Source of the DNA: Echinometra lucunter | Lineage: Eukaryota > Echinodermata > Echinoidea > Camarodonta > Echinometridae | Assembly: GCA_029962745.1 (NCBI GenBank) | Contig: CM057154.1 | Span: forward strand, 1,399,459 to 1,463,458 | Direction of reading: 5' to 3' | DNA length: 64,000 nucleotides | In this document: piece by piece, positions 19,490 through 29,152 of the stretch | Layout: each line of letters begins with the position of its first letter | Position numbering within the stretch: position 1 is the stretch's first letter | Position numbers and translations under genes: made by a program | Notes under the pieces: generated by a model | Databases searched by the model: none | Told to the model about the DNA's origin: nothing | The model's input: only the letters and a program-made list of their open reading frames with translations

Positions 19490-19630
19490 ATACTACCTCT
19501 ACTGTGACTACTACTGCTACTACTGCTGCTACTGCTACTACTGCTGCTGCTGCTGCTTCTACTGCTATTACTACTACTGCTGCTGCTACTGCTGCTACTG
19601 CTATTACTACTACTGCTGCTGCTACTGCTG

Positions 19631-19690
<60 letters not shown>

Positions 19691-19801
19691 TTACTACTAC
19701 TACTACTACTACTACTACTGCTGCTGCTACTACTACTACTACTACTACTACTATTACTACTACTACTACTACTACTACTACTGCTACTGCTACTGCTGCT
19801 G

Positions 19802-19851
<50 letters not shown>

Positions 19852-19888
19852 GCTACTACTGCTACTACTGCTACTACTGCTACTACTG

Positions 19889-19944
<56 letters not shown>

Positions 19945-20275
19945 GCTACTACTGCTACTACTGCTACTACTGCTACTACTGCTATTACTACTACTGCTGC
20001 TGCTGCTGCTCCTACCACTGCTACTGCTACTGCTACTAATACTGCTACTGCTACTGCTATTACTGCTGCTGCTGCTGCTGCTGCTGCTCCTACTGCTGCT
20101 GCTCCTACCACTGCTACTGCTACTACTACTGCTACTGCTGCTGCTGCTACTACTACTACCACTACTACTACTACTGCTACTGCTATTGCTACTACTGCTG
20201 CTACTGCTATTGCTACTGCTACTGCTACTGCTGCTACTGCTACTACTGCTGCTACTACTACTACACACACACACA
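19490..20275. repeat. Large interrupted trinucleotide array (CTA/CTG/ATT) with CA tail
   Basis: About 765 bp of ACT, GCT and ATT triplets, with long pure (ACT)n blocks at 19634-19719, 19802-19850 and 19892-19944. There are 9-bp higher-order stretches (CTACTACTG)n at about 19852-19890 and 19944-19983, and (CA)n at 20263-20275. No triplet type is a stop in any frame, so frames of 291-394 codons appear on both strands, encoding Ser, Thr, Ala or Val runs. No exon evidence was seen, so it is classed as a microsatellite. Confidence 0.95.
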
Positions 20276-24606: not shown

Positions 24607-24644
24607 ACGAATTTTTTGTCTTCTTTTTTTTCTTCTCTCACCAG
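24607..24644 (+). promoter_or_regulatory. 3' splice site of the Musashi exon
   Basis: An almost pure pyrimidine tract (ATTTTTTGTC followed by TTCTTTTTTTTCTTCTC) runs into TCACCAG at 24643-24644, with no AG between tract and acceptor. This is the strongest polypyrimidine/AG combination I noticed on the + strand and it fixes the exon start. Confidence 0.75.
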
Positions 24645-24686
24645 GTTGATCCTAAAGTGGCGTTCCCCAAGAGGTCCCATCCTAAG
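24645..24686 (+). CDS. msi: Internal 42-nt exon of a Musashi-family RNA-binding protein (RRM1-RRM2 linker)
   Basis: The sequence shows a pyrimidine-rich stretch ending CTCTCACCAG, then 42 nt with no stop, then AAG|GTAGGA. In frame 0 it encodes the 14 residues VDPKVAFPKRSHPK. From family knowledge, Musashi proteins join RRM1 to RRM2 with a linker ending IDPKVAFPRRAQPK, followed by MVTRTKKIFVGG, and in vertebrates I recall this linker as its own small symmetrical exon. The match is DPKVAFP plus the basic R/K and final PK; I/V, R/K, A/S and Q/H are conservative or mild changes. Musashi binds UAG-containing RNA and controls translation in neural and stem cells. Length 42 keeps phase 0, so skipping would keep the frame but shorten the linker. 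hnRNP A/B and DAZAP1 linkers fit worse because they lack KVAFP. Flanking RRM exons were not found within the window. Paralogue (msi1 or msi2) cannot be decided. Confidence 0.82.
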
Positions 24687-24694
24687 GTAGGATT
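24687..24694 (+). promoter_or_regulatory. 5' splice site of the Musashi exon
   Basis: The exon ends CCTAAG and is followed by GTAGGATT. GT, A at +3 and G at +4 fit; the usual GT at +5/+6 is replaced by GA, so the donor is only moderate. A moderate donor on a 42-nt exon is compatible with regulated inclusion, which is inference. Confidence 0.65.
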
Positions 24695-28702: not shown

Positions 28703-29152
28703 CCCACTGGATTTGGTACTTTATTACTCTCCCTGGATGAAGAGAAACACTTGTAGCCAAAATGCCCTTGGAAGGAAGAACCCATATTGTTTGCATTTAC
28801 TTTCCATCTTGTATTTCTTTTCTTTCTGTTGGAAGTGAATAAATATGAATTTCTATTTGAATTTGAATTACCTAATTATTATTGTTATTATTAGTATTAT
28901 TAGAATTGTCAAACTCAACTCAAAAACCCACTGGATTTGTTACATTATTACTCTCCCTGGATGAAGAGAAACACTTGTAGCCAAAATGCCCTTGGAAGGA
29001 AGGACCCATATTGTTTGCATTTACTTTCCATCTTCTATTTCTTTTCTTTCTGTTGGAAGTGAATAAATATGAATTTGAATTTGAATTTGAATTACCTAAT
29101 TATTATTGTTGTTATTAGTATTATTAGAATTGTCAAACTTAACTCAAAAACC
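28703..29152 (+). repeat. Recent tandem duplication, two 224-bp copies
   Basis: CCCACTGGATTTG starts at 28703 and again at 28927. The copies are nearly identical through GCCCTTGGAAGGAAG, TGTTTGCATTTACTTTCC, AATAAATATGAATTT and TTATTAGAATTGTCAAACT(C/T)AACTCAAAAACC. Differences are mainly in the ATTTGAATTTGAATT stretch and a few substitutions, pointing to a young event. Confidence 0.92.

Follow-up and report, generated by a model that had tools for sequence, protein, structure and literature searches.

A lone 42-nt Musashi exon in 64 kb of sea urchin DNA, most likely constitutive, in an exon layout already known from Drosophila Rbp6

The window, by which we mean the whole 64,000-nt stretch of Echinometra lucunter DNA analysed here (C4:1399459-1463458, in a genome of 743 Mb on 2266 contigs), contains a genuine coding exon of a Musashi gene, complete with its acceptor and donor. 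This exon, exon E, is 42 nt long, lies on the plus strand at window positions 24645-24686 (C4:1424103-1424144) and is in phase 0 on both sides. We are highly confident in reading it as an internal and most likely constitutive exon of a long-intron Musashi gene, supplying most of strand beta-4 of RRM1 together with the start of the linker that leads to RRM2. Across the Musashi RRM block as a whole, the six exon sizes that could be measured are equal in fly and sea urchin.

Exon E was identified from the letters together with homology, and reads VDPKVAFPKRSHPK in one open phase. Read directly from the letters of the plus strand, its 3' splice site (window 24612-24644) has a pyrimidine-rich tract ending in ...ctcaccag, with the acceptor ag at window 24643-24644, and its 5' splice site is AAG/gtagga (gtagga at window 24687-24692); on these letters the two splice junctions are predicted. 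When 120 Musashi-family proteins were compared with the window by tblastn (E up to 50), exon E was the top place among the best 25 listed, with a best E of 3.7e-6 for an alignment that extends into the pyrimidine tract. Simple repeats account for every other listed place with E below 0.01, and the rest, with E of 0.016 or more, were taken as chance. An exon E profile gave 29.1 bits in the window, against a maximum of 17.5 bits (mean 7.8) among the best scores in 50 simulations, each a first-order Markov version of the window, and the runner-up place for the profile in the 263-kb region reached 9.2 bits. All 14 residues of exon E are identical (14/14) in protein P0032, in P0121 of Diadema setosum and in P0122 of Strongylocentrotus; the mapped urchin exons otherwise differ by a few residues from the latter two proteins. 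Neither tblastn nor the profile search found a second Musashi exon in the window. An earlier note on this DNA had described, from splice sites and peptide, a lone and symmetrical 42-nt Musashi exon in 64 kb, and that description is borne out by the tblastn and profile results and by the 0-0 phase.

The same note called exon E a linker exon, which is apt for the start of the inter-RRM linker but not for the first residues, which belong to RRM1 beta-4 in the AlphaFold2 model of P0032. This model (mean pLDDT 79.8; pTM 0.43, so that the domain arrangement is uncertain; pLDDT about 64 at residues 101-110) has a strand at residues 89-95 and the next from residue 111, and exon E corresponds to residues 91-104. 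As modelled, exon E supplies most of RRM1 strand beta-4, after which it opens the linker towards RRM2. For MSI1, nucleobases are described as stacking on Phe23, Phe65 and Phe96, while the backbones of Val94 and Phe96 provide polar contacts (PMC9882606). In the fish MSI1 proteins P0053 and P0028, which follow the same numbering (K21, F23, F65), the segment begins at residue 90, and its DPKVAF motif places V94 at the V and F96 at the F, both within the exon E segment. By this correspondence, exon E covers the positions equivalent to the RNA-contacting Val94 and Phe96 of MSI1.

Skipping of exon E would keep the reading frame, and we infer that it would break RRM1; any such skipping is expected to disable an RNA-binding domain, not to trim a linker. 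Because exon E encodes beta-4 with its RNA-contact positions, constitutive use is likelier than use as a regulated cassette. In the arrangement that we propose, exon E would be spliced between an RRM1 exon, expected to be 85 nt long, and the 93-nt RRM2 exon; its inclusion would be constitutive, and whatever control the long introns carry would concern transcription or alternative starts, not exon E.

The main alternative is that exon E is a regulated cassette, the skipping of which keeps the frame but removes RRM1 beta-4 and an RNA-stacking position, giving a Musashi protein dependent on RRM2. We consider this very improbable. A length of 42 nt with phase 0-0 is compatible with it, and so are two predicted proteins among the 239 retrieved, P0031 of pufferfish and P0109 of fin whale, which lack exactly the 14 residues; both, however, are single gene models, and short exons are probably often missed by predictors. 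The 14-residue segment is present in 186 of the 239 proteins and is longer in six (18, 18, 19, 25, 30 and 39 residues), while 47 fall outside the search pattern, including later-starting proteins and those of the DPKHATPK kind, which we take to be dMsi-like; the protein database was clustered at 90% identity, so that skipped isoforms could be hidden in these counts. The echinoderm and hemichordate proteins listed all retain the segment, which argues against a cassette. Another pufferfish model, P0180, repeats a 31-residue block corresponding to exon F, the RRM2 exon that follows exon E.

Splicing does seem to vary at the 3' junction of exon E in a relative, a point in favour of a cassette: isoform X12 of Acanthaster planci (P0130) has 11 extra residues, IDDNSEPCNGT, after PPK and exactly at the 3' border of exon E, which may represent a sea star alternative exon or donor. 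Against this, no homologue of the insert turned up in the urchin intron between exons E and F, where the best score was 8, compared with 11 and 9 for the control regions. Two TAG triplets, TAG being the core of Musashi targets, also lie in the downstream intron within 150 nt of exon E, and these leave room for autoregulation, although two per 150 nt is about the chance expectation. In the mouse, Musashi proteins acting at the near end of a downstream intron are said to favour inclusion of some exons of other genes (PMC13175383). The nearest upstream TGC is 137 nt away, and GCATG is absent within 150 nt on either side, both of which speak against regulated inclusion. Neural microexons are 3-27 nt long and SRRM4-dependent; exon E resembles them in being short and frame-preserving but differs in its length (42 nt, above 27) and in being part of a folded RRM. 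Apart from frame neutrality and the two downstream TAG triplets, the sequence gave no sign of a regulated microexon.

The preferred reading, of a constitutive internal exon, draws on the gene around exon E as well as on the exon itself. For the N-terminal and RRM portions of the gene, eight Musashi exons were mapped (A, B, C, E, F, G, H and I), all in order on the plus strand of a single contig. Upstream of exon E are the coding part of exon A (C4:1377051-1377112), exon B (41 nt, C4:1377435-1377475) and exon C (82 nt, C4:1379237-1379318). Downstream, and beginning outside the window, are exon F (94 nt as assembled, or 93 if one extra A is discounted; C4:1469830-1469923), exon G (49 nt, C4:1533258-1533306), exon H (83 nt, C4:1567124-1567206) and exon I (97 nt, C4:1571788-1571884). 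With the exception of the start of A, all mapped exons from A to I have ag/gt borders. Translation is free of stops through A+B+C and through G+H+I, and identity to echinoid Musashi proteins, taken piece by piece, is mostly 78-100%, with lower values where a match extends beyond a border or crosses the extra base. C-terminal matches reach C4:1592017, giving a coding span of 214,967 bp. The extra A in exon F shifts the frame in the assembly and is probably an assembly error. Further along, exon G and the sequence around it, about 6.5 kb in all, occur in two copies that are 98.9% identical and adjoin a 500-N gap (C4:1528000-1543099); this looks like an uncollapsed second haplotype, though a real exon duplication could also produce it.

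The contig carries, in order and on one strand, tandem Musashi-type RRM1 (in parts) and RRM2 joined by an (I/V)DPKVAFP(K/R)R segment. The named top matches of P0032 are Musashi homologs, its closest named relatives being the Musashi proteins of Diadema setosum and Strongylocentrotus (92 and 91% identity). A structure-chain comparison, weaker as evidence because its query was modelled in part on Musashi itself, placed Musashi chains in its best three positions, with a yeast protein and hnRNP A1 outscoring shorter Musashi constructs. No better Musashi locus was found among the best 50 and 55 candidates scored in two whole-genome searches; the others (E<=0.001) were 51% identical or less. By homology, then, exon E is assigned to an MSI1/MSI2/Rbp6-type Musashi gene, the sole one found among the genome candidates scored. 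That exon E might instead be a decayed copy of Musashi, or a stretch left open by chance, as its isolation in the window, the frame shift in exon F and one missing exon might suggest, is next to impossible to reconcile with a profile score above that of all 50 simulations, ag/gt at the mapped borders other than the start of A, stop-free translation of A+B+C and G+H+I, and no better locus among those 50 and 55 candidates.

The isolation of exon E in the window follows from the gene's very long introns, which downstream measure 45.7, 63 and about 25 kb. The gaps between mapped exons, which include N gaps and, in the region of exon G, the 6.5-kb repeat, are 44,784 bp from C to E, 45,685 bp from E to F, 63,334 bp from F to G and 25,172 bp from the second copy of G to H. 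The window holds the first 39,314 bp (window 24687-64000, plus strand) of the 45,685-bp intron that ends at exon F, and part of the upstream intron (window 1-24644, plus strand), in which no Musashi exon was detected.

The length of the upstream intron depends on one RRM1 exon, exon D (residues 63-90, expected to be 85 nt long to fit the phase of the exons on either side), which should lie between C and E and was not found. Searches by tblastn, motifs and profile did not detect it in the letters of the window or of the surrounding C4 region. It was also absent among the hits of the two whole-genome searches (best 50 and 55 candidates scored), but these also missed the shortest exons (B, E and G), so that this negative weighs little, even though one of the two caught an 18-residue exon. 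The single N stretch between C and E, of 5,000 N (C4:1394459-1399458), ends one base before the window and is the likely place of exon D. If exon D does lie inside these 5,000 N, the upstream intron would, taking the gap at its nominal size, measure about 24.6 to 29.6 kb; as long as exon D is not hidden in the window, it exceeds 24.6 kb. The long flanking introns claimed by the earlier note therefore stand, outright on the downstream side and with this proviso upstream.

Of 63 stop-to-stop stretches (at least 85 aa and past an entropy filter, low-complexity ones having been dropped beforehand), 45 were scanned with Pfam for proteins of nested genes or transposons and gave one weak match, to DUF1088 (E 0.0028), which was taken as chance. 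The window contains no tRNA and no Rfam family at gathering score. A simple pattern for recursive splice sites had no match in the window and two in the 263-kb region; one of these two, at C4:1575780, coincides with the donor site of a coding exon further along the gene. About 760 bp at window 19507-20264 are a degenerate ACTACT/CTACTACTG intronic simple repeat, several frames of which are open as low-complexity protein, and a 224-bp tandem pair with 96% matches at window 28703-29152 is a local duplication within the intron.

Ten of the 239 proteins (P0096, P0103, P0107, P0111-P0114 and P0117-P0119) begin at the first codons of exon F, with M(M)VTRTKK, and so have RRM2 as their sole RRM; organism names are attached to eight of them, all arthropods. 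Four fly Rbp6 transcripts likewise encode RRM2 only (PMC3507872). The fly RRM2-only proteins start at the Met of the exon that follows the 42-bp exon, whereas the urchin counterpart, exon F, starts with Pro, so that an RRM2-only protein in the urchin would call for an alternative first exon carrying a start of its own. One could imagine that, from the bilaterian ancestor onwards, the intron after exon E has stayed long because it harbours alternative first exons or internal promoters for RRM2-only Musashi, in which case a switch to RRM2-only protein would be common to arthropods and echinoderms; we regard this as unlikely. More plausibly than governing exon E, the long introns may serve transcription or alternative starts in general. 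Precedents are the RRM2-only fly transcripts and, in mouse Msi1, an enhancer located within intron six (PMC3108301). In the sea urchin larval brain, expression of chat requires Msi1 (PMC10465340).

The closest known counterpart of the urchin layout is fly Rbp6. In the published account, exons 3-9 of Drosophila Rbp6 isoform A measure 41, 82, 85, 42, 93, 49 and 83 bp, the introns after exons 5, 6 and 7 measure 2,060, 35,941 and 44,722 bp, and the whole gene measures 172,933 bp, a structure termed unusual there for its very short exons adjoining introns of up to 45 kb (PMC3507872). Urchin exons B, C, E, F, G and H form the series 41-82-42-93-49-83, with exon F counted as 93 without the extra assembly base, so that all six of the seven sizes that can be measured are equal to those given for the fly. 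On the strength of this size series, the fly 42-bp exon would be the same exon as exon E. The long intron after the 42-bp exon is a further likeness, at 35.9 kb in the fly by the same figures and 45.7 kb in the urchin. The upstream side differs: the fly intron there is given as 2,060 bp, whereas the nearest upstream exon found in the urchin is 44.8 kb away. Giant introns on both sides, which the earlier note had taken for an old architecture, are thus not common to fly and urchin. Its suggestion, drawn from putative giant introns of vertebrate MSI2, that the layout is old in deuterostomes was too narrow: since Rbp6 shares the exon size series, the exon borders must go back at least to the ancestor of bilaterians, and the age of the layout moves from deuterostome to at least bilaterian. 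Judged from the proteins, the borders also match in other animals, as shown by the repeated exon F block of P0180, by P0031 and P0109 with precisely the 14 residues missing, and by the ten proteins that begin at exon F. Apart from the fly paper, literature searches on Musashi gene structure or splicing and on sea urchin Musashi showed, in titles and the starts of abstracts, no comparison of Musashi exon sizes between phyla. Human MSI2 adds a likeness at the N-terminal end, in that its first 21 residues, to DPG, precede a splice border (PMC5599597), and urchin exon A ends within the codon of G21; the difference is that in human MSI2 these 21 residues come from two exons, 1 and 2. The exon layout is, in short, already known from Drosophila Rbp6, and beside it the urchin case is mostly ordinary.
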